DNA from: a virus
Strand: one strand, 5' to 3'
DNA: 58,303 nt
IMG/VR virus record: IMGVR_UViG_3300024346_000071
Location: 1 to 58,303 of that record
Part shown: piece after piece, positions 28,093 to 58,303 of the stretch
Layout: every line of letters begins with the position of its first letter
Position numbering within the stretch: the first letter of the stretch is position 1
Program-made: the position numbers and the translations under genes
Notes under the pieces: model-generated
Told to the model about the DNA's origin: nothing
The model's input: the letters and a program-made list of their open reading frames with translations, nothing else
Databases searched by the model: none

Positions 28093-28710
28093 TTATAGGA
28101 TTTTTCCTCCTTGTTCAATTAAACTTTGTGCTTTTTTATATTTCACAAATTCAGTAGTACCATCTTTTAATTGAACCATTACCATCTCATTTCTACCATA
28201 GGTTTTTGGTGCAATATAAGTTGTTGAATATCTACGATTTGGATTTGTAATTAGAATTCCATTTAAGTGGTCGATTTCATGTTGTGCAACAACACATTCC
28301 ATCAATCCTAAATCATTAAAAAACTCTTCAGAATCTTTCCAATCACCCAACTCATTATCAGGTGAAAATACAACCGTCCCTAAGTTATCACATTCGACCG
28401 TAATCTTCTTTGCACGGATAGTTTTAACTGGACTCTTCATTGTTTTATCAATTGATAAACATTGTTCTACATATGCAACTGAATCGTGTGAGTATTCTAC
28501 AATCTTTGGATTGATTAATACTAATGGGTCTTTTACATTAATTATACATGCTCTAACATCTAATCCTAATTGATTAGCAGATAAACCAATACCACCGAAT
28601 TTAACTAATCCACTTGCTAATATTGTAGAAATAGATTCTATATCAGCAGGTGTGAATTTTGTTTCACTAATTGTTTTTGATAATTTTAATTTGTCTTTTA
28701 CTATGTTCAT
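28093..28710 (-). CDS. def: Peptide deformylase
   Basis: A 205-residue enzyme that removes the N-terminal formyl group from new proteins. All three motifs are present: GGIGLSANQ (39-47), EQCLS with metal-binding Cys84, and QHEIDHLNG with His144, Glu145 and His148. Phage deformylases are documented in marine T4-like phages. Here it is about 30-40 residues longer than the minimal phage forms, with an extended C-terminus. It belongs to the operon headed by the promoter at 28958-28989. Confidence 0.95.
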   Translation of the reverse strand: MNIVKDKLKLSKTISETKFTPADIESISTILASGLVKFGGIGLSANQLGLDVRACIINVKDPLVLINPKIVEYSHDSVAYVEQCLSIDKTMKSPVKTIRAKKITVECDNLGTVVFSPDNELGDWKDSEEFFNDLGLMECVVAQHEIDHLNGILITNPNRRYSTTYIAPKTYGRNEMVMVQLKDGTTEFVKYKKAQSLIEQGGKIL

Positions 28711-51938: not shown

Positions 51939-53054
51939 TTAATGTGAATCTTCTACATTATGTTTTTCTGCAAAGATTAAATAATCTGGATTAATAACTT
52001 TTGCAATCTTTTGTCTTTCGCCGGTTTGGTGTTTGATTACAATTCCTTCCTCTGGTACTTTTGTGTTTGGAATAAAATTATTAAATGTGTATTTATCTTG
52101 TACCTCTTGTGACCAACTTCCGTAGTGTAAAATTTCTACATAAGGTAATTCTAAAATATCTTTAATCAGTAACCTAGCATTAATAACACTTAAATACTCA
52201 CTATTCTCTTTTACATCGAATCCTACGAACTTAATATCCGTTAACCCATAATCATATCCCTTTTGGATTCCCGCTCCGTAAATCTCACCATATAAGGTAA
52301 TACCATCACCAATCTCCGGCTCCATTGTATTACTCTTAACATACTCCCACAATTTATTTTTGATATCATATTTCTTTTCAATATCATACCAAACATTTGT
52401 ATCATAGAATCCTTGAGAATCTGAGCCCTTCTCTACATTATGTGAACCAACTACGAATTCATATTCAATCCATTTGTTACCAAAGAATTTTTTGATTCTA
52501 TCTAATATGGATAATTTATTTTTCTTAACAATACCATATCTTGCATTTGTTCCGTGAATCTTACGAGTGATTTCCACCATGTCATCTTCGGTAAACATTC
52601 CAGGTACGTTTTTCAAATTGGGAAACTTATAGTAAACATGAAAGTGTGGGTTATCTTGATAACGAATCTTTTTACCACTTGCTAATTGAACCATTTTAAC
52701 AGGTGGTTCGTATTTGTAAATACCTAAATAATCCATCATATCATCACCTTCACTAACGATTAGGGGTAATGCATATTGGATAATTAAAGACTCACTATAA
52801 ACTCCTCTTAATTTAACAGTTCTAACCCTACCACCATTACGAAGATAATTGGTTACTCCTAATTTTTCAGATAACTCAAATGGAATAACTGCATCGGTTG
52901 TAGCACAGATTACCAACTCACCAACACTATGAGCATCTTTTTTTACTATACAATTCCAACCACCAACTACTGCTAATTCAATATTATCAGCTCCTTCGAT
53001 TGGTTTGATTTCATTTATTGTTGCAACGTAGCAAACTGAATTATTATTTTCCAT
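51939..53054 (-). CDS. RNA ligase with N-terminal OB domain (Rnl5-like)
   Basis: A 371-residue ATP-dependent RNA ligase. The first ~110 residues form an OB-type module (YVATINEIKPIEGADNIELA; VGELVICATTDAVIPFE), as in the Deinococcus Rnl family. Motif I is Lys165-I-H-G in EITRKIHGTNARYGIV; YGEIYGAG is motif IIIa-like; EGIVIKHQTG is motif IV; KIAKVINPDYL is motif V. It seals nicked RNA. Four nt separate it from the 5'-kinase gene, implying joint RNA repair. Confidence 0.87.
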   Translation of the reverse strand: MENNNSVCYVATINEIKPIEGADNIELAVVGGWNCIVKKDAHSVGELVICATTDAVIPFELSEKLGVTNYLRNGGRVRTVKLRGVYSESLIIQYALPLIVSEGDDMMDYLGIYKYEPPVKMVQLASGKKIRYQDNPHFHVYYKFPNLKNVPGMFTEDDMVEITRKIHGTNARYGIVKKNKLSILDRIKKFFGNKWIEYEFVVGSHNVEKGSDSQGFYDTNVWYDIEKKYDIKNKLWEYVKSNTMEPEIGDGITLYGEIYGAGIQKGYDYGLTDIKFVGFDVKENSEYLSVINARLLIKDILELPYVEILHYGSWSQEVQDKYTFNNFIPNTKVPEEGIVIKHQTGERQKIAKVINPDYLIFAEKHNVEDSH

Positions 53055-53058
53055 CTTC

Positions 53059-53472
53059 TTATAATTTTACTTCAAATCTATTTTTCATTTGTTCTAACTT
53101 TTCAGCAGGAACTCCATGCTGATTTACTCCACCATGCCTATTCTCTACAATAATAGTAAATACCATATAACCATACTTTTCAGCTAACTTATAGTAAGCT
53201 TCCATCTCCCACTCTTGTGTAAAAGTATTTGATACTACAATTTCTGGATAGAATTGTGGATTTACTCCGTTATCTTTCATACGAATTTCCACTTGCTCTC
53301 TACACCATTCATGTGCTTCTCTTAATTTAGTAGCATCAAAGTTATAGTTACCTTCCTTATCATAGAAGAACTTATCAGCTTCACAAATTGAGTAATCGTT
53401 CCAAATAAAATTGGCGAATGTACTCTTACCACTTCCTGGCAATCCTCTTACTAATGTTAATATCTTATTCAT
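53059..53472 (-). CDS. Polynucleotide 5'-kinase-like P-loop protein
   Basis: A 137-residue AAA_33-type kinase: VRGLPGSGKSTFANF (P-loop, 8-22), CEADKFFYDKEGNYNFDATK, REAHEWCREQVE and VVSNTFTQEWEMEAYYKLA correspond to the T4 polynucleotide kinase 5'-domain. The 3'-phosphatase domain of T4 Pnkp is missing here but a matching free-standing domain is at 26452-26889. It is adjacent to the RNA ligase. Confidence 0.85.
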   Translation of the reverse strand: MNKILTLVRGLPGSGKSTFANFIWNDYSICEADKFFYDKEGNYNFDATKLREAHEWCREQVEIRMKDNGVNPQFYPEIVVSNTFTQEWEMEAYYKLAEKYGYMVFTIIVENRHGGVNQHGVPAEKLEQMKNRFEVKL

Positions 53473-53904: not shown

Positions 53905-54558
53905 TTATCTATAATTTTCGACTATTTCGTGATGGTCTTTACTGAATAAACTCTTAACTGGTCTATCTCTCATAATGGATAATATCTCACTCATATCAAT
54001 TGGATATAAGTTATTACCCTCACATCCCACATCCATCATCTTACCTTCTTGTAATCTCATTGATGGATTAAAGTGAACGTGTCCATGTAAGTGAATTGCT
54101 CCCCTCGCCATATTATCCCAACTTGCGATTGGAAAGTGCATTAGAGCAAAACGTGCTTCATCTTGTAACGGAGTTCCCACATTCCACTTTACAATCAAAT
54201 CCAAATATTTGTTTACCGAACTGAAAAGGGATTGAACCTCTTCTTTGTTATTTCCAATGTGATGGTCGTGATTGCCCAATATTAAATGGATATTCTTACA
54301 TACGATTTGGTCTCTGAACTTTTGTATTTGTTCAAACCCACCAAAACTCCAATCACCTAAATGAAATAGGATATCATCTTGTCCGACCAATTCGTTGATG
54401 TTACCAACAAGGTGGGCGTTCATATGTTCCAATGATTTAAACTCCCTTATTGTTACGGGGTCTGACCATTGGGTTGTAGATGAACATATATTAGCATGGT
54501 TGTAGTGGGTATCACTTGTGAACCATAACCTTTGTCCTTTGTTTAGATTTAATTTCAT
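53905..54558 (-). CDS. Calcineurin-like metallophosphoesterase
   Basis: A 217-residue phosphoesterase with the full metal-ligand set: WFTSDTHYNHANIC (D-x-H), LFHLGDWSFGG (GD), LILGNHDHHIG (GNHD), and AIHLHGHVHFN (GHxH). This subfamily is common in phages. RNA 2',3'-cyclic phosphate or nucleotide substrates are possible. First gene of the kinase/ligase operon, behind the promoter at 54575-54606. Confidence 0.9.
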   Translation of the reverse strand: MKLNLNKGQRLWFTSDTHYNHANICSSTTQWSDPVTIREFKSLEHMNAHLVGNINELVGQDDILFHLGDWSFGGFEQIQKFRDQIVCKNIHLILGNHDHHIGNNKEEVQSLFSSVNKYLDLIVKWNVGTPLQDEARFALMHFPIASWDNMARGAIHLHGHVHFNPSMRLQEGKMMDVGCEGNNLYPIDMSEILSIMRDRPVKSLFSKDHHEIVENYR

Positions 54559-54624: not shown

Positions 54625-54701
54625 TGGTGGACCAGATAGGAATCGAACCTATTACCTACTGATTATGAGTCAGTTGCTCTAACCGAATGAGCTACAAGTC
54701 C
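54625..54701 (-). tRNA. tRNA with CAT anticodon (Met or Ile2)
   Basis: 77 nt including an encoded CCA. Anticodon loop CTCATAA on a 5-bp stem, TTCGATT T loop. Pair 1-72 is G-C, so it is not an initiator. It could be elongator Met, or Ile2 (lysidine) reading AUA. Confidence 0.93.
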
Positions 54702-54750
54702 ATTATCGTTTAATCTAACGATAAAATCTGATATCGTTTCTTCCAACGAT

Positions 54751-54951
54751 AAAAAATAAGCAGGTGTGGAATCACCTACTTATATAGTGAATGAGAAACA
54801 TATGAATCTCTTGCGGCTATATCACCAAAGCCCATAAGGTGCCGGAGGAAGGGTTGGTTACCTACACGAGGTCCTTTCGGAGTACTCATCTTCTAGAATA
54901 GACACGTCTCAATGTAACTCGTCAGTACATTGTTTATTCCGCCACTCCGGC
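54751..54951 (-). ncRNA. Structured non-coding RNA with intrinsic terminator, tRNA-Leu-like 5' end
   Basis: About 200 nt with no ORF. The 5' end (GCCGGAGTGGCGGAAT) matches the tRNA-Leu(TAA) of this array at 14 of 16 positions. GCCGGAG pairs with CTCCGGC (54841-54847), enclosing hairpins CAATGTA/TACATTG, TCC-GAAA-GGA (GNRA loop) and ACCT/AGGT. No T arm is present. A second domain has GATATAG/CTATAT and GAGA/TCTC. The 3' end is a 9-bp hairpin (54758-54781, loop ATTCCA) followed by a T tract: an intrinsic terminator on this strand. No known RNA family recognised. Confidence 0.6.
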
Positions 54952-54959
54952 ATATTTCT

Positions 54960-55133
54960 TTAATCTTTTAATTCATTAATAAGACTATCTATCATATCAT
55001 CACCTAAAGAAATTTGGTGCAGTTCTTTTAATTTTAGATAGTTTTCTAAATACATTGATGTACTTACTACCTTGTCACCTTTTTGTATCTTTATTTTAAT
55101 GATACCACTTTCATTTGTTAATTCATTTTCCAT
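54960..55133 (-). CDS. 57-residue hypothetical protein within the tRNA array
   Basis: An ATG-to-TAA ORF (ENELTNESGIIKIKIQKGDK; then YLENYLKLKELHQISLGDDM) of mixed strand/helix type. It lies between tRNA-Ala and the structured RNA, ending 8 nt before the latter. Protein-like composition supports it. The function is unknown. Confidence 0.55.
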   Translation of the reverse strand: MENELTNESGIIKIKIQKGDKVVSTSMYLENYLKLKELHQISLGDDMIDSLINELKD

Positions 55134-55150
55134 AACTATTTGTTTTTTTT

Positions 55151-55227
55151 TGGTGGAGGTGGCAGGAATCGAACCTGTGACCCTCTGCGTGCAAGGCAGA
55201 TGCTCTAGCCAACTGAGCTACACCCCC
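55151..55227 (-). tRNA. tRNA-Ala(TGC)
   Basis: 77 nt with encoded CCA. Anticodon loop CTTGCAC on stem TCTGC/GCAGA, TTCGATT T loop, 7-bp acceptor with one G-T pair. Confidence 0.95.
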
Positions 55228-55238
55228 AAAAAAAATAA

Positions 55239-55342
55239 TGTAACGGCTGTGCGGTTTGTATCTCATCCACTCCTTTATACGAGTTTCAAAAGTTTCCATT
55301 TCATACTTAGCGTCCGTTCCGCCATTCTTTCGAATCGTTACA
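55239..55342 (-). ncRNA. Possible structured RNA between tRNA-Ala and tRNA-Leu
   Basis: A 104-nt element closed by a perfect 7-bp TGTAACG/CGTTACA helix, with a GCGG/CCGC inner helix, an ATTC-GAAA-GAAT hairpin (GNRA loop) and an ACTC/GAGT hairpin. It is not a tRNA (no anticodon or T arm). An ORF frame runs through it but extends into the flanking tRNAs and lacks a good start. It would be cut out by tRNA end processing. Confidence 0.35.
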
Positions 55343-55344
55343 CG

Positions 55345-55427
55345 TACCAGAGATGGGAGTCGAACCCATACGAGCGTCTGCTCACGACATTTTAAGTGTC
55401 GCATGTCTACCATTCCATCACTCCGGC
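55345..55427 (-). tRNA. tRNA-Leu(TAA)
   Basis: 83 nt, no encoded CCA. Anticodon loop CTTAAAA on CGACA/TGTCG, long variable arm as in class II tRNAs, TTCGACT T loop. Confidence 0.94.
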
Positions 55428-55434
55428 ATCTATA

Positions 55435-55851
55435 CTATTTTATAACTGCGTAAAGTTTTGCTTTCTTAAAAGATGTTTGTTTATCACCTTCACCAATTAA
55501 GATATCAACTTTATTTTTATATCTCCTATTCATCACATCCCTTATAGTATAAGTACCACTAAGTTTACCAATGCCTGTAATTCTTACTTTCTTGCCAAAC
55601 TTATACTTTCTTTTCAAATCTCTACTCACTGCTATTATCCTTTGCCTCTTTGGATTTGCAGGATTGATTTTATACCCACTTGCAGTAATCAAAGGTGTAC
55701 TATCAGTTTGTTCAATAGTAGGTGAATAGGTTGTTACTGAAACAATATCAGGTTCAATCCCTTTAATCTCCATTTCAATTTCTCTCTCCATCATATTAAT
55801 TTCTATTGGTAGAATGAATAATATGAAAGATAAAATTACATTTGTATACAT
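55435..55851 (-). CDS. Exported 3D-domain (double-psi barrel) protein
   Basis: A 138-residue protein. A hydrophobic N-terminal segment (NVILSFILFILPIEI) acts as a signal or anchor. The C-terminal ~90 residues match the 3D/RlpA-like barrel (TASGYKINPANPKRQRIIAV; TIRDVMNRRYKNKVDILIGE, with the typical Asp residues), found in cell-wall-acting enzymes such as MltA-type transglycosylases. It is encoded inside the tRNA array. A lysis or wall-remodelling role is inferred. Confidence 0.7.
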   Translation of the reverse strand: MYTNVILSFILFILPIEINMMEREIEMEIKGIEPDIVSVTTYSPTIEQTDSTPLITASGYKINPANPKRQRIIAVSRDLKRKYKFGKKVRITGIGKLSGTYTIRDVMNRRYKNKVDILIGEGDKQTSFKKAKLYAVIK

Positions 55852-55875
55852 AACATTTTATTTTAAAGTTTAACG

Positions 55876-55949
55876 TGATTCGGAAAGGATTCGAACCTTT
55901 GGCCTATTCATTAGAAGTGAATTGCTCTATCCAACTGAGCTACCGAACC
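55876..55949 (-). tRNA. tRNA-Arg(TCT)
   Basis: 74 nt, no encoded CCA. Loop CTTCTAA on ATTCA/TGAAT, TTCGAAT T loop. It reads AGA, a favoured Arg codon in AT-rich genomes. Confidence 0.95.
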
Positions 55950-55953
55950 GTTG

Positions 55954-56027
55954 CGGATTGGACGGGACTCGAACCCGTGACCTCCGCCGTGACAGGGCGG
56001 CATTCTAACCAACTGAACTACCAATCC
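55954..56027 (-). tRNA. tRNA-Asp(GTC)
   Basis: 74 nt, no encoded CCA. Loop CTGTCAC on CCGCC/GGCGG, perfect GGATTGG/CCAATCC acceptor, discriminator G as expected for Asp. Confidence 0.96.
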
Positions 56028-56032
56028 TTTTG

Positions 56033-56106
56033 AGCCTCCTGTCGGATTCGAACCAACGACCACCTGATTACAAATCAGGAGCTCTGGCCAACTGAGCTAA
56101 GGAGGC
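56033..56106 (-). tRNA. tRNA-Thr(TGT)
   Basis: 74 nt, no encoded CCA. Loop TTTGTAA on CCTGA/TCAGG, perfect GCCTCCT/AGGAGGC acceptor, TTCGAAT T loop. Confidence 0.95.
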
Positions 56107-56110
56107 AATT

Positions 56111-56176
56111 AATAGGTGAGGCTTAATTATTTAACTTTTTACCATCATTAAGTCTTTAATGCTTTAGACACCTATT
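56111..56176 (-). ncRNA. tRNA-sized three-helix element (not a tRNA)
   Basis: A 66-nt element closed by a perfect 8-bp AATAGGTG/CACCTATT helix, enclosing a CATTAA-AGAC-TTAATG hairpin and a TTAA/TTAA hairpin. It sits between tRNA-Thr and tRNA-Glu, spaced like a tRNA, but lacks a T arm, a D arm and a plausible anticodon arm. Confidence 0.35.
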
Positions 56177-56177
56177 G

Positions 56178-56249
56178 TACTCAGTACGGGATTCGAACCC
56201 GTATTACATCCGTGAAAGGGATGTGACCTAACCCTTAGTCGAACTGAGC
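56178..56249 (-). tRNA. tRNA-Glu(TTC)
   Basis: 72 nt, no encoded CCA. Loop CTTTCAC on ACATCC/GGATGT, GCTCAGT/ACTGAGT acceptor, TTCGAAT T loop. First tRNA after the promoter at 56269. Confidence 0.93.
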
Positions 56250-56268
56250 GTTAATTCTTATAACAATG

Positions 56269-56300
56269 TAAAGATACGAAGAATATTCCACATATCCAAA
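56269..56300 (-). promoter_or_regulatory. Host-type promoter inside the tRNA array
   Basis: TTTGG (56296-56300), 19-nt spacer, TATCTTTA (56269-56276) on the minus strand, directly after the RNase H-like gene. Drives tRNA-Glu, Thr, Asp, Arg and the genes beyond. Confidence 0.82.
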
Positions 56301-56301
56301 T

Positions 56302-56763
56302 TTAATTATGTATTTTTACTAAATGGTCAGCAGCATAAGTTGCTATTGGTCCTAAAGATTTATACCTTACTGAATACCCCATACCTTCAACCATACCCAC
56401 AGCCTGACGAAATACTTCGTTAGATTTGAAACGAGGGTCTGGGTTCAAGTCAATATCAATCCACTTAGGTTTTGGGATACCCGCCTCACGTAATTCTTCG
56501 GCAGTTTCAATTGCAAACCAAACTTCTTGTAATAATCTAACTGAACGGATTCTTTCCCTTTCACTATTCCATCTTCTATACAATACATGTGCACCCTTTC
56601 CTTTTCTATATAAGGCAACTACGATTGCGTAGATAGTTTTGTTACCTGAATTTTGTGAATCGCATCCAATTAGGATTTCGGCATCAGTATTCGTAATCAT
56701 ATATTCTTTGATATATGAAATCAATTCCACTTCTTCTGCTGTATACAATTTTCTATAAACCAT
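56302..56763 (-). CDS. RNase H-like fold protein (DUF458/YkuK type)
   Basis: A 153-residue protein. AEILIGCDSQNSGNKTIYAI then VALYRKGKGAHVLYRRW (about 28-66) and PKWIDIDLNPDPRFKSNEV (about 99-117) carry the spaced acidic residues of the predicted RNase H-like nucleases of the DUF458 family. A role in RNA or DNA processing is inferred from the fold. It lies between two tRNA groups, so tRNA-related processing is possible. Confidence 0.75.
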   Translation of the reverse strand: MVYRKLYTAEEVELISYIKEYMITNTDAEILIGCDSQNSGNKTIYAIVVALYRKGKGAHVLYRRWNSERERIRSVRLLQEVWFAIETAEELREAGIPKPKWIDIDLNPDPRFKSNEVFRQAVGMVEGMGYSVRYKSLGPIATYAADHLVKIHN

Positions 56764-56783
56764 AATTTTACCTTTTTAGTTTG

Positions 56784-56858
56784 TACCCATAGTAGGACTC
56801 GAACCTACAATTGTGTGGTGTCTAAAGCCACTGCGTATTCCAATTCCGCCATACGGGT
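56784..56858 (-). tRNA. tRNA-Leu(TAG), atypical short variable region
   Basis: 75 nt. The D-arm is of the Leu type (TGGCGGAATTGG), and loop TTTAGAC gives anticodon TAG with one C-A mismatch at the stem top. The variable region is only ~6 nt, unusually short for Leu. The acceptor ACCCGTA/TATGGGT is good. Confidence 0.8.
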
Positions 56859-56867
56859 ATTTTTCAG

Positions 56868-56953
56868 TAGAGAGTAAGGGGTTCGAACCCTTGCGACTTT
56901 AACATCCTACCTGTTTAGCAAACAGGCCCCTTCACCAACTTGGGTAACTCTCT
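56868..56953 (-). tRNA. tRNA-Ser(GCT)
   Basis: 86 nt with the long variable arm of Ser tRNAs. Loop TTGCTAA on CCTGT/ACAGG, acceptor AGAGAGT/ACTCTCT, no encoded CCA. Confidence 0.95.
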
Positions 56954-56955
56954 AT

Positions 56956-57032
56956 TGGGGTGTCTAATGAGGTTCGAACTCATACTATCAGTACCACAAA
57001 CTGACGTGCTAACCATTAACACTATAAACACC
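56956..57032 (-). tRNA. tRNA-His(GTG)
   Basis: 77 nt including the extra 5' G (-1) opposite C73, the His identity feature, and an encoded CCA. Loop TTGTGGT on TCAGT/ACTGA. Confidence 0.95.
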
Positions 57033-57037
57033 ATATG

Positions 57038-57107
57038 TTGCGTGTTTGAGGTTTGAACTCAATTGGTCATCCTTATGAGAGATAACTCTTTTCCACTAAG
57101 CCACGCA
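57038..57107 (-). tRNA. Second tRNA with CAT anticodon (Met or Ile2)
   Basis: 70 nt, short D arm (CTT/AAG), loop CTCATAA, TTCAAAC T loop, no encoded CCA. The acceptor TGCGTGG/ACACGCA has one mismatch. It differs strongly from the CAT tRNA at 54625-54701, so one of the two may be tRNA-Ile2 and the other Met. Confidence 0.85.
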
Positions 57108-57109
57108 AT

Positions 57110-57168
57110 GTGAGGAATTGAACCTCCTTCCCAGCTCGATGCCAGGCGATACACCCAGTATCCTTCAC
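57110..57168 (-). pseudogene. tRNA-like element without a normal acceptor or anticodon loop
   Basis: It has a D-arm-like GATAC-TGGGT-GTATC, an arm CCTGG-CATCGAG-CTGGG whose loop has A instead of the invariant T at position 33, and a T arm GGAGG-TTCAATT-CCTCA. The 7-bp acceptor cannot form without invading the adjacent tRNA. It is probably a decayed tRNA, or a tRNA mimic. Confidence 0.45.
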
Positions 57169-57174
57169 CGGTTG

Positions 57175-57246
57175 AGGCGGGTATTGGATTCGAACCAATG
57201 TTAAAGGTTTTGCAGACCTCCTCCTAACCACTCGAGACAACTCGCC
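57175..57246 (-). tRNA. tRNA-Cys(GCA)
   Basis: 72 nt. Loop CTGCAAA on GAGGT/ACCTT, discriminator T as expected for Cys, TTCGAAT T loop, no encoded CCA. Confidence 0.93.
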
Positions 57247-57255
57247 ATTATTTGT

Positions 57256-57308
57256 TGTTCACTTTTTTTGATTGTTCACGAATAGTGAACACTCTAAATT
57301 TGTGAACA
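57256..57308. repeat. Four TGTTCAC heptamers in nested two-fold symmetry
   Basis: TGTTCAC at 57256-57262 and 57273-57279; its complement GTGAACA at 57285-57291 and 57302-57308. Inner and outer pairs share the same centre (57282), and copies are 17 bp apart on each side. It fills the widest gap (65 nt) in this tRNA run. Operator-like, or an RNA hairpin. Confidence 0.6.
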
Positions 57309-57311
57309 TTG

Positions 57312-57384
57312 TAGTTCCATAGGGATTCGAACCCCAACTTTTTCATCCGTAGTGAAAGGTGCTAATCCGTTACACCATAGAACT
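57312..57384 (-). tRNA. tRNA-Arg(ACG)
   Basis: 73 nt. Loop CTACGGA on TTTCA/TGAAA, TTCGAAT T loop, no encoded CCA. A34 would need deamination to inosine by the host TadA to read CGU, CGC and CGA. Confidence 0.92.
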
Positions 57385-57389
57385 ATTTG

Positions 57390-57460
57390 CACCCCCTGAA
57401 AGATTCGAACTTTCATCTGCGGTTTTGGAGACCGATATGCTACCATTGCACCAAAGAGAT
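57390..57460 (-). tRNA. tRNA-Trp(CCA)
   Basis: 71 nt. Loop CTCCAAA on TCGGT/ACCGC, discriminator G as in Trp tRNAs. The acceptor ATCTCTT/AGGGGGT relies on several G-T pairs. Confidence 0.9.
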
Positions 57461-57465
57461 GTGTG

Positions 57466-57538
57466 TTGGAATGATAAGACTCGAACTTATAACCTTCCGC
57501 GTATCAGGCGGATGCTCTCACCATTGAGCTACATTCCA
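57466..57538 (-). tRNA. tRNA-Ile(GAT)
   Basis: 73 nt. Loop CTGATAC on TCCGC/GCGGA, perfect TGGAATG/CATTCCA acceptor, TTCGAGT T loop, no encoded CCA. Confidence 0.95.
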
Positions 57539-57544
57539 ATGTTG

Positions 57545-57620
57545 TAGGGTAAGCAGGATTCGAACCTGCGTGCTCTTCGTCCCAAACGAAGCGAGATAGA
57601 CCGGACTCCTCTATTACCCT
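57545..57620 (-). tRNA. tRNA-Pro(TGG)
   Basis: 76 nt. Loop TTTGGGA on CTTCG/CGAAG, perfect AGGGTAA/TTACCCT acceptor, TTCGAAT T loop, no encoded CCA. Confidence 0.94.
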
Positions 57621-57626
57621 ATATTG

Positions 57627-57700
57627 TGAACCCGAATGGACTCGAACCATTGACTCCCTCATTAAAAGTGAGGTGCTCTAACCAACTGAGCTACGGATTC
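57627..57700 (-). tRNA. tRNA-Lys(TTT)
   Basis: 74 nt. Loop CTTTTAA on CCTCA/TGAGG, acceptor GAATCCG/CGGGTTC, TTCGAGT T loop, no encoded CCA. Confidence 0.95.
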
Positions 57701-57705
57701 AATTG

Positions 57706-57778
57706 TGGAAATAAACGGATTCGAACCGCTGACACCTGCATCTTCAGTGCAGTGCTCTACCTACTGAGCTACATTTCC
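57706..57778 (-). tRNA. tRNA-Phe(GAA)
   Basis: 73 nt. Loop CTGAAGA on CTGCA/TGCAG, acceptor GGAAATG/TATTTCC, TTCGAAT T loop, no encoded CCA. Confidence 0.95.
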
Positions 57779-57783
57779 AATTG

Positions 57784-57865
57784 TGAGAGTAGAAGGACTC
57801 GAACCTCCGAACTCTAATGAGAACTGATTTACAGTCAGTTGCAATTGCCACTATGCGATACTCCC
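57784..57865 (-). tRNA. tRNA-Tyr(GTA)
   Basis: 82 nt with the long variable arm of bacterial Tyr tRNAs. Loop CTGTAAA on ACTGA/TCAGT, acceptor GGGAGTA/TACTCTC. Confidence 0.95.
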
Positions 57866-57870
57866 AATTG

Positions 57871-57944
57871 TAGAAGATATAGGATTCGAACCTATGACCC
57901 TTTGGATGTAAACCAAATGCTCTAACCAACTGAGCTAATCTTCT
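57871..57944 (-). tRNA. tRNA-Val(TAC)
   Basis: 74 nt. Loop TTTACAT on TTTGG/CCAAA, perfect AGAAGAT/ATCTTCT acceptor, TTCGAAT T loop. Confidence 0.95.
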
Positions 57945-57949
57945 ATATG

Positions 57950-58020
57950 TTACCCGAGCTGGATTTGAACCAACCCTAACTCCATCAAAGGGAGTTGTGC
58001 TACCGATACACCATCGGGCA
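57950..58020 (-). tRNA. tRNA-Gln(TTG)
   Basis: 71 nt. Loop CTTTGAT on ACTCC/GGAGT, acceptor TGCCCGA/TCGGGTA, TTCAAAT T loop, no encoded CCA. Confidence 0.93.
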
Positions 58021-58025
58021 AAATT

Positions 58026-58096
58026 CTCAAGCATTCTGGCTCTCGCAACAGAGCTTCCATCTTATTTAACCCTACTGTGCGATACGGGTACTTGAG
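58026..58096 (-). ncRNA. tRNA-sized structured element between tRNA-Gln and tRNA-Gly (not a tRNA)
   Basis: A 71-nt element closed by CTCAAG/CTTGAG, with hairpins ACCC/GGGT (13-nt loop) and GCTCT-GTTGCG-AGAGC. The hairpin at the T-arm position lacks the TTCGA signature, and there is no credible anticodon arm. Spacing to both neighbours is that of the tRNAs. Confidence 0.35.
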
Positions 58097-58099
58097 TTG

Positions 58100-58171
58100 A
58101 GCGGATGATAGGAATCGAACCTACGTCTCCTACTTGGAAGGAAGGAGTAATAACCATTATACGACATCCGC
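58100..58171 (-). tRNA. tRNA-Gly(TCC)
   Basis: 72 nt. Loop CTTCCAA on CCTTC/GTAGG (one T-T mismatch), perfect GCGGATG/CATCCGC acceptor, TTCGATT T loop. Confidence 0.93.
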
Positions 58172-58189
58172 ATGTTAAAGAACCAATTG

Positions 58190-58261
58190 AGGGAAGGGAG
58201 AATTTCGAAATCTCGACCTGATGATTAACAGTCATCTGCTCTGCCTCTGAGCTACCATCCC
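58190..58261 (-). tRNA. tRNA-Asn(GTT)
   Basis: 72 nt. Loop CTGTTAA on GATGA/TCATC, acceptor GGGATGG/CCTTCCC with one T-T mismatch, TTTCGAAA T loop. First tRNA of the array within the window. Confidence 0.93.
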
Positions 58262-58268
58262 ATAAACG

Positions 58269-58302
58269 AAAAAACCCTTAACTTTTTTATCAGTTAAGGG
58301 TT
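58269..58302 (-). terminator. Rho-independent terminator upstream of the tRNA array
   Basis: On the minus strand a 10-bp stem AACCCTTAAC/GTTAAGGGTT with a 10-nt loop is followed by a T tract. It ends a transcript entering from beyond the right edge. Only 7 nt separate it from tRNA-Asn. Confidence 0.85.
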
Positions 58303-58303
58303 C

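Follow-up and report, generated by a model that had tools for sequence, protein, structure and literature searches.

The window, by which we mean the whole stretch of viral DNA that was analysed (58,303 nucleotides), carries a tRNA array at positions 54625-58261. The array lies entirely on the minus strand, as does every other feature located below. ARAGORN finds 22 tRNA genes in it, and the Rfam model RF00005 (gathering score 29 bits) recovers the same 22 at 44.9-75.5 bits, far beyond chance. Directly before the array, at the end of the contig (58270-58303), a terminator-like hairpin with a T-run can be read in the sequence (AACCCTTAACT..AGTTAAGGGTTTTTTC).

Read along the minus strand, the tRNA genes called by both programs are Asn(GTT) at 58189-58261 (56.0 bits in Rfam), Gly(TCC) at 58099-58171, Gln(TTG) at 57949-58020, Val(TAC) at 57870-57944, Tyr(GTA) at 57783-57865, Phe(GAA) at 57705-57778, Lys(TTT) at 57626-57700, Pro(TGG) at 57544-57620, Ile(GAT) at 57465-57538, Trp(CCA) at 57389-57460, Arg(ACG) at 57311-57384 and Cys(GCA) at 57174-57246. 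They continue with His(GTG) at 56956-57031, Ser(GCT) at 56867-56953, Leu(TAG) at 56783-56858, Glu(TTC) at 56177-56249, Thr(TGT) at 56032-56106, Asp(GTC) at 55953-56027, Arg(TCT) at 55875-55949, Leu(TAA) at 55344-55427, Ala(TGC) at 55151-55227 and a gene with the anticodon CAT at 54625-54701. A second CAT gene, at 57038-57107, falls below the Rfam threshold. These anticodons agree with those listed in an earlier note on this DNA. The tRNA genes occupy 1,740 of the array's 3,637 bases, and the remainder includes two ORFs of more than 100 amino acids and conserved non-coding elements.

Only the 54625 CAT, Ala and His genes encode their CCA end, exactly as the note had stated. The tRNA-His gene fits as G-1:C73 followed by CCA. 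All array tRNAs except the one at 57038 have GG in the D-loop and a standard T-loop.

ARAGORN does not call the 57038 gene, and Rfam gives it 22.9 bits. However, it is conserved in place among relatives, and on this ground we rejected an artefact: the copies in L009/L090 (76/76) and L098 (71/71) are identical to it, and those at the corresponding position in L010, L011, L013 and L094 share 87-97% identity with it. A further relative, L014, has a better-formed CAT tRNA at this position. Judged by this conservation, the gene is probably a real tRNA and, by position and exclusion, probably the elongator Met. The CAT gene at 54625 is closer to tRNA-Ile2(CAU) (56/74) than to elongator Met (47/74). 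This comparison with MAG tRNAs, together with positional logic, speaks against a Met tRNA, and the gene is most likely tRNA-Ile2, which would serve AUA through lysidine. Hence, Met service rests on the weak 57038 gene. With this dependence, the earlier count of 23 tRNA genes serving all 20 amino acids holds: 22 genes lie above threshold and one, conserved in relatives, below it.

The array does not read every sense codon. Ser UCN, with 801 codons or 4.88% of usage, has no decoder in it, CGG (6 codons) is unread, and AUA (3.04%) is unread too unless C34 of the 54625 tRNA is converted to lysidine. Neither class I (I/L/M/V) nor class IIb aminoacyl-tRNA synthetases were found in the window or in eight relatives (238-311 kb), and we therefore dropped phage-encoded enzymes of these classes as candidates. 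A CCA-adding-enzyme domain occurs in only four of the eight relatives. The note had suggested near independence from host tRNAs. This is overstated because the searched synthetases were not found, Ser UCN is undecoded and most of the tRNAs lack CCA.

The note had also exempted the initiator tRNA from the set. This exception is probably an edge effect. In relatives (L010, L011, L017 and L097, among others) tRNA-Asn is preceded, about 1.5-2 kb upstream, by an initiator-type tRNA. The window has only 42 bases upstream of tRNA-Asn and stops just short of the place where relatives carry the initiator tRNA, tRNA-Ser(UGA) and tmRNA. Each of the 12 related large records searched has 23-34 tRNA matches, and 10 of the 12 have a tmRNA above cut-off. 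Related loci with 18 or more tRNAs number 49, and in 15 of them all 20 isotypes fit into about 20 kb even though the loci are truncated. Of the parts of a jumbo-phage translation island, the RNA repair genes are present in the window, and the tmRNA and initiator tRNA are seen only in relatives, the window being a fragment.

Three genes that resemble an RNA-repair kit, as judged from sequence matches and predicted folds, lie directly downstream of the array and recur together in relatives. The first (53905-54558) encodes a calcineurin-like metallophosphoesterase (phrog_547). The second (53059-53472) encodes a polynucleotide-kinase-like P-loop protein (AAA_33) and the third (51939-53054) an RNA ligase of the Rnl5/DraRnl type. 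The ligase combines an N-terminal OB module (PF21189) with an RNA-ligase catalytic domain (PF09414), as this type requires. It matches Naegleria Rnl5 (E 8e-14) and TIGR02306 (E 9.5e-25), the latter with 87 bits, which is under the model's curated cut-off of 151. The kinase-like protein has a conserved P-loop, and its model (pLDDT 86) shows the fold of Pnk-group P-loop kinases; the top Foldseek match is the Clostridium thermocellum polynucleotide kinase (E 1.7e-6), followed by T4 Pnk. We regard it as a putative Pnkp-type 5' polynucleotide kinase. The metallophosphoesterase model lacks the Pnkp phosphatase fold, and its sole match is 1xm7, a protein of unknown function. A Pnkp phosphatase is thus without structural support, and a role in end-healing is a guess.

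Kinase and ligase also occur together in T4 (Pnkp and Rnl1) and in bacterial Pnkp/Hen1, which can in principle repair anticodon-nuclease damage. The window differs from T4 and bacterial Pnkp in that its kinase-like protein is short and separate, its ligase is of the Rnl5/DraRnl type and its metallophosphoesterase stands alone. The note had linked large phage tRNA sets to the loss of host tRNAs or to defence nucleases. Such a link is plausible and gains support from the three adjoining genes and their joint recurrence. The same purpose, resistance to anticodon nucleases, has been proposed for phage tRNAs elsewhere (PMC10264068).

To explain the locus, we propose an island that maintains translation, repairs tRNAs and is also a source of small RNAs acting in trans. 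We consider this reading moderately probable. The minus strand would be transcribed into long precursors, and RNase P and 3'-end enzymes of the host would cut the 23 tRNAs out of them. CCA would be added later to the 20 tRNAs that do not encode it, and host synthetases would charge them. Together with the initiator tRNA, tRNA-Ser(UGA) and tmRNA present in relatives, these tRNAs could sustain phage translation if host tRNAs are cut or scarce. Going by homology and predicted fold, the kinase-like protein and the ligase may heal the ends of cut tRNAs and seal them, perhaps with the metallophosphoesterase as a helper. The phage itself is large and contractile-tailed, and its host probably belongs to the Bacteroidota.

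Alternatively, the tRNAs may be kept only to supply codons that an AT-rich phage needs more often than its host does. The phage is indeed AT-rich, with about 30% GC across most of the window, and the tRNAs of the Xanthomonas jumbo phage XacN1 reportedly correspond to codons that are more frequent in the phage than in its host (PMC5852040). However, every isotype is present, including Trp and Met with their single codons. These two, like the tRNAs with GNN anticodons, which read both codons of a pair, gain nothing from bias compensation, and the heavily used Ser UCN codons go unserved in the array. Codon compensation alone is therefore an unlikely explanation, and we prefer the maintenance and repair island.

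Structured RNAs lie between the tRNA genes. Element E1 (58024-58099, about 76 nt) has a closing stem P1 and two hairpins, P2 and P3, linked by a loop-loop (kissing) pseudoknot. E4 (55236-55343, about 108 nt) folds into an 8-bp closing stem, a hairpin and a long-range helix. E5 (54836-54955, about 115 nt) has tRNA-Leu-like ends (GCCGGAG..CTCCGGC followed by ACC) and a rebuilt interior. The families comprise at least 119 viral contigs for E1, where it lies in or beside tRNA arrays, at least 61 for E4 and at least 48 for E5. In E1, 97.3% of pair cells are standard across 53 distinct sequences, with P2 and part of the kissing helix fixed by construction in the search pattern.

Strong compensatory changes back the conserved secondary structure of all three elements. 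Changes on both sides occur at 12 of 19 pairs in E1 (174 cells vs 57 in shuffles), at 14 of 16 pairs in E4 (121 vs 29) and at 10 of 23 pairs in E5 (97 vs 31), each with 0/500 in the shuffles, statistics that are inflated by phylogenetic relatedness and that draw on alignments of which A10 and A11, unlike A8, had been fitted to their own structures. The unpaired cores are near-invariant.

Could the elements be decaying tRNA pseudogenes or random spacers? They sit among tRNAs, and E5 has its acceptor and part of its D-arm in common with tRNA-Leu. Yet E1 and E4 have no tRNA match, and neither ARAGORN nor Rfam calls a tRNA in E5. The elements, with their near-invariant cores, recur in dozens to more than 100 contigs, and double changes maintain the helices across many of them, which would not be expected of pseudogenes. 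On covariation and recurrence we rejected tRNA pseudogenes, and the explanation as a whole is very improbable.

None of the three matches a family in Rfam 15 above the gathering score, and we rejected known Rfam RNAs. The GOLLD, ROOL and OLE models do not match them either, and the elements are far shorter than these RNAs. A search of 50,697 GenBank phage records returned none of them, and the part of the literature that we covered contains nothing that matches. The gaps between the tRNAs hold three or more families of small RNAs, among them E1, E4 and E5, that are strongly conserved and had not been described before.

The strand of E1 is that of the nearest tRNA in 124/124 instances, and E1 lies within 50 nt of a tRNA in 90 of 136. 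The strand of E4 agrees with that of the tRNA in 51/51 instances, 44 of them within 50 nt. A location inside the array, often a few bases from a tRNA, would also suit cis-acting elements, such as self-cleaving ribozymes, processing signals or attenuators of the tRNA precursor. The compact pseudoknotted fold and conserved core of E1 resemble small ribozymes. Against this, the elements adjoin many different tRNAs and are absent from some otherwise similar arrays. No ribozyme family in Rfam 15 matches, and each element is closed by its own stem of 6-8 bp, as in a free-standing RNA. We consider a cis-acting role doubtful.

We tentatively suggest that E1, E4 and E5 are phage-specific small RNAs that act in trans, a reading that falls just short of being probable. 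They would be freed from the same tRNA-array transcripts by tRNA-processing enzymes, much as the tRNAs would be, with E1 compacted by its covarying kissing-loop pseudoknot. During infection their role could be to protect translation or to take it over, for instance as decoys for tRNA nucleases or as ligands of repair enzymes or ribosomes. We would guess first that they bind proteins acting on tRNA or serve as decoys for them, with E5 as a remodelled tRNA-Leu mimic.

One specific partner could be a Ro/TROVE protein, with the conserved RNAs as its Y-RNA-like ligands, as in some RNA-repair systems. E5 is tRNA-like, a review of jumbo phages has TROVE proteins working with tRNA-like RNA (PMC7824862), and tRNA genes give weak, sub-threshold YrlA matches. 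However, TROVE (PF05731) turned up in just one of the 13 records searched and not in the window, which weakens the idea for most of the group. We therefore rejected E5 as a TROVE partner and think this reading scarcely credible. Strand bias, placement and covariation make the three RNAs concrete experimental targets.

Complete phage tRNA sets are already known from jumbo phages. XacN1 carries 26 canonical tRNAs for all 20 amino acids together with tRNA-processing genes (PMC5852040), and its annotated RNA ligase is among the matches of the window's ligase. In contrast to the window, XacN1 infects a different host group and has its tRNAs in terminal repeats, and GenBank phages gave no match to E1, E4 or E5. 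Huge phages can carry many tRNAs, tmRNA, peptide deformylase and tRNA-ligation genes (PMC7162821), and the bS21 phages of freshwater Bacteroidetes are large and AT-rich with 5-25 tRNAs (PMC9723584). In the passages of these two papers that we consulted, structured RNAs between tRNAs are unmentioned.

Small RNAs at a phage tRNA operon have a precedent in T4, where two stable RNAs are annotated next to the tRNAs at an end of the operon. They are RNA C and RNA D, also called species 1 and 2 RNAs, with lengths of 139 and 119 nt. We rejected kinship with E1, E4 and E5, since the T4 locus (L143) gave no model match. GOLLD and ROOL, structured RNAs of unknown function, are often found near phage tRNA islands (PMC12286853). 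They are much larger and form nanocages, whereas E1, E4 and E5 measure 75-130 nt and are interleaved between tRNAs. It has long been asked why large phages carry tRNAs and why the tRNA operon of T4 also gives rise to two stable RNAs that are not tRNAs. The uncultured phages considered here, a widespread group, combine near-complete tRNA sets, an RNA-repair cluster and at least three conserved RNAs outside the catalogues searched.

The earlier note does not mention conserved non-tRNA RNAs within the array, and there are further non-coding elements. E6 (57247-57310) consists of nested TGTTCAC/GTGAACA inverted repeats that form a strong hairpin (z -5.4). Its copies in relatives (L009/L090, L100, L050/L051 and L079) each directly follow tRNA-Arg(ACG). 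E2 (57108-57173), conserved and usually found directly after tRNA-Cys, contains a GGATACTGG.TGTATCGCC hairpin and a T-arm-like hairpin. E3 (56107-56176), a conserved element with the closing stem AATAGGTG..CACCTATT, also occurs in L013 and L017. E7 (54703-54752), a tandem of TATCGTT..AACGATA hairpins, is conserved in several relatives, where it immediately precedes the last CAT tRNA. The two ORFs likewise have counterparts elsewhere. The 138-aa ORF (55435-55851) has no Pfam match and has related ORFs in the arrays of relatives. The other encodes an RNase H-like protein of 153 aa (56302-56763; PF04308), and in 71 of 80 related loci this gene is found no more than 1 kb from a tRNA.

The minus-strand array at 54625-58261 holds 22 tRNA genes according to ARAGORN, and the same 22 exceed the gathering score of the Rfam tRNA model (29 bits). 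The earlier note had counted 23, serving all 20 amino acids. The additional gene, a CAT tRNA at 57038-57107, scores 22.9 bits and thus falls under the gathering score. We retain it because it is conserved in relatives at the same place in the array: the related loci L009/L090 and L098 carry an identical sequence, and those of L010, L011, L013 and L094 share 87-97% identity with it, the matching array position being occupied in every case. CCA is encoded only in the 54625, Ala and His genes, just as the earlier note had read it. In total, tRNA makes up 1,740 of the 3,637 array bases, less than half.

CAT tRNAs come in three kinds in the relatives. The initiator type has C1xA72 and lies about 1.5-2 kb upstream of tRNA-Asn; in L010 and L011 it carries the GGG/CCC anticodon stem, with weaker forms in other relatives. 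For the last CAT gene of our array, at 54625, the nearest match is a MAG-encoded CAT tRNA of the GGTCC type (56/74 identities vs 47/74 to elongator Met), which we take to be a tRNA-Ile2. Judged by this similarity, the 54625 gene is most likely tRNA-Ile2 too. Methionine then falls to the weak 57038 gene.

Even with generous wobble, some codons find no decoder in the array: among 16,412 codons, these are Ser UCN (801 codons, 4.88%) and CGG (6 codons). AUA (499 codons) is decoded only if lysidine is made. The gaps, including the initiator, are probably an edge effect, because only 42 bases separate tRNA-Asn from the upstream end of the window, which comes from a linear virus contig, and it is on this side that L010 and L011 carry tRNA-Ser(TGA), tmRNA and the initiator tRNA. 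A terminator-like hairpin (58270-58303) stops only about 8 bases ahead of tRNA-Asn and therefore leaves no space for a promoter between them. Compensation for codon usage could be proposed as the sole explanation for the tRNA set. It is the weaker account, because tRNAs for Trp, Met and the two-codon GNN boxes cannot respond to codon bias. We favor replacement, in which phage tRNAs would stand in for damaged host tRNAs.

Baseplate wedge genes in the window mark a contractile-tailed phage. By baseplate protein, the closest cultured phages are Microcystis phage Mel-JY01 (42.3%) and Flavobacterium phage immuto (38.6%); the host is likely a member of the Bacteroidota. Relatives are as large as 311 kb. 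Each of the 12 related records searched contains 23-34 tRNA matches, and 10 of the 12 have a tmRNA above cut-off. Among 49 related loci that carry 18 or more tRNAs, 15 have all 20 isotypes. The published precedents are XacN1, whose 26 canonical tRNAs serve all 20 amino acids (PMC5852040), and huge phages, which have up to 67 tRNAs, some genomes also carrying tmRNA and tRNA-ligation genes (PMC7162821). Hence, a complete tRNA set is a group trait and in principle nothing new. The interest of the array comes instead from its unreported RNA families.

Several array spacers are conserved in relatives at corresponding places. E1 (58024-58099, minus strand) is an RNA of 76-80 nt, or about 90 nt with an extra inserted hairpin. 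Its core pattern matches at least 119 viral contigs and, among 84,980 prokaryote genomes, a single 4.5-kb MAG contig. This contig (L144, Umea3p4_bin-1352), in which no tRNAs were detected, may be phage DNA that was binned with the MAG. When 53 distinct E1 sequences were aligned with MAFFT (A8), 97.3% of cells paired in a structure made up of the closing stem P1, two hairpins (P2 and P3) and a loop-loop helix, and 12 of 19 pairs had both-sided changes. Double-change cells number 174 compared to a shuffle mean of 57 (0 of 500 shuffles as high), and sliding the structure reduces pairing to 39-51%. The kissing helix is 99-100% paired, in the forms CG, AU, UA and GU; since the search pattern fixed P2 and two kissing positions, the invariance of these is not evidence and the varying positions count. 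A tRNA is present in the locus for 124 of 136 E1 instances, always on the same strand (124/124), and 90 of the 136 lie within 50 nt of a tRNA.

E4 (55236-55343, minus strand) is present in 61 viral contigs. Wherever the locus also has a tRNA (51 instances), E4 is on the tRNA strand; in 44 cases it lies within 50 nt, and most often it follows tRNA-Leu(TAA). E5 (54836-54955, minus strand; 48 contigs) has ends that match tRNA-Leu (GCCGGAG..CTCCGGC plus ACC), and its model weakly matches tRNA-Leu genes (26-36 bits). Its interior is rebuilt: a hairpin has been inserted and the loops differ from those of tRNA-Leu. ARAGORN and Rfam both give no tRNA call for E5. In the alignments A10 and A11, which are biased towards the two structures because they were fitted to them, E4 shows double changes at 14 of 16 pairs (46 distinct sequences, 99.3% of cells paired, 121 double-change cells vs 29 in shuffles) and E5 at 10 of 23 (97 cells vs 31). 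E1, E4 and E5 are thus structured RNA families linked to tRNA arrays by position, and E1 and E4 also by strand.

For E1, E4 and E5 alike, searches against Rfam 15 (window and typical relatives) and of 50,697 GenBank phages gave no match. The nearest precedents, in kind and not in sequence, are T4 RNA C and D, and GOLLD and ROOL, which occur near phage tRNA islands (PMC12286853). The array would be co-transcribed and processed in a tRNA-like manner. The three RNAs could be cis-acting, as ribozymes or processing signals, which we consider rather unlikely; we favor products that would act in trans.

A repair gene cluster accompanies the tRNA set. The genes 3' of the last tRNA encode first a metallophosphoesterase, then a short P-loop protein and then an RNA ligase; the three are found together in relatives. 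The ligase has the Rnl5 domain pair, matches Naegleria Rnl5 and matches TIGR02306 under that model's cut-off. For the P-loop protein, a predicted model (32 homologues, pLDDT 86) best matches Clostridium thermocellum polynucleotide kinase in the PDB, followed by T4 Pnk. The metallophosphoesterase matches only 1xm7, a protein of unknown function. A kinase and a ligase adjoining the array fit a system that mends cut tRNAs, of the sort that a review describes for jumbo phages (PMC7824862), and the two enzymes may repair tRNAs here. Searches of nine records (the window and eight relatives) found neither class I (I/L/M/V) nor class IIb synthetases, so within this scope the phage relies on its host to charge the tRNAs.

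Further observations concern the array and its relatives. A PF04308 RNase H-like gene (56302-56763) lies within the array; it is at most 1 kb from a tRNA in 71 of 80 related viral loci, with the nearest tRNA on the same strand in 77, and is possibly an array-linked nuclease. A peptide deformylase gene (28093-28710) adds another translation-related function to the fragment. tRNA-Ala is the sole missing isotype in many related arrays (L023, L024, L035, L039, L049, L050, L051), and ARAGORN places amber-type tRNAs (CTA anticodon) near two (L045 15023-15094, L049 12054-12128). tmRNA tags in L010, L040, L053, L097, L100 and L116 are conserved and unusually long (23-24 aa, e.g. AEELSSFTFEDAMAFVGADYAVAA, DELSTMTFDDLMAFVGADYALAA); that of L011 is short, GVNNYALAA. 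Finally, conserved palindromic elements among the tRNAs, at 54703-54752 (TATCGTT/AACGATA tandem hairpins) and 57247-57310 (nested TGTTCAC/GTGAACA), are possibly regulatory.
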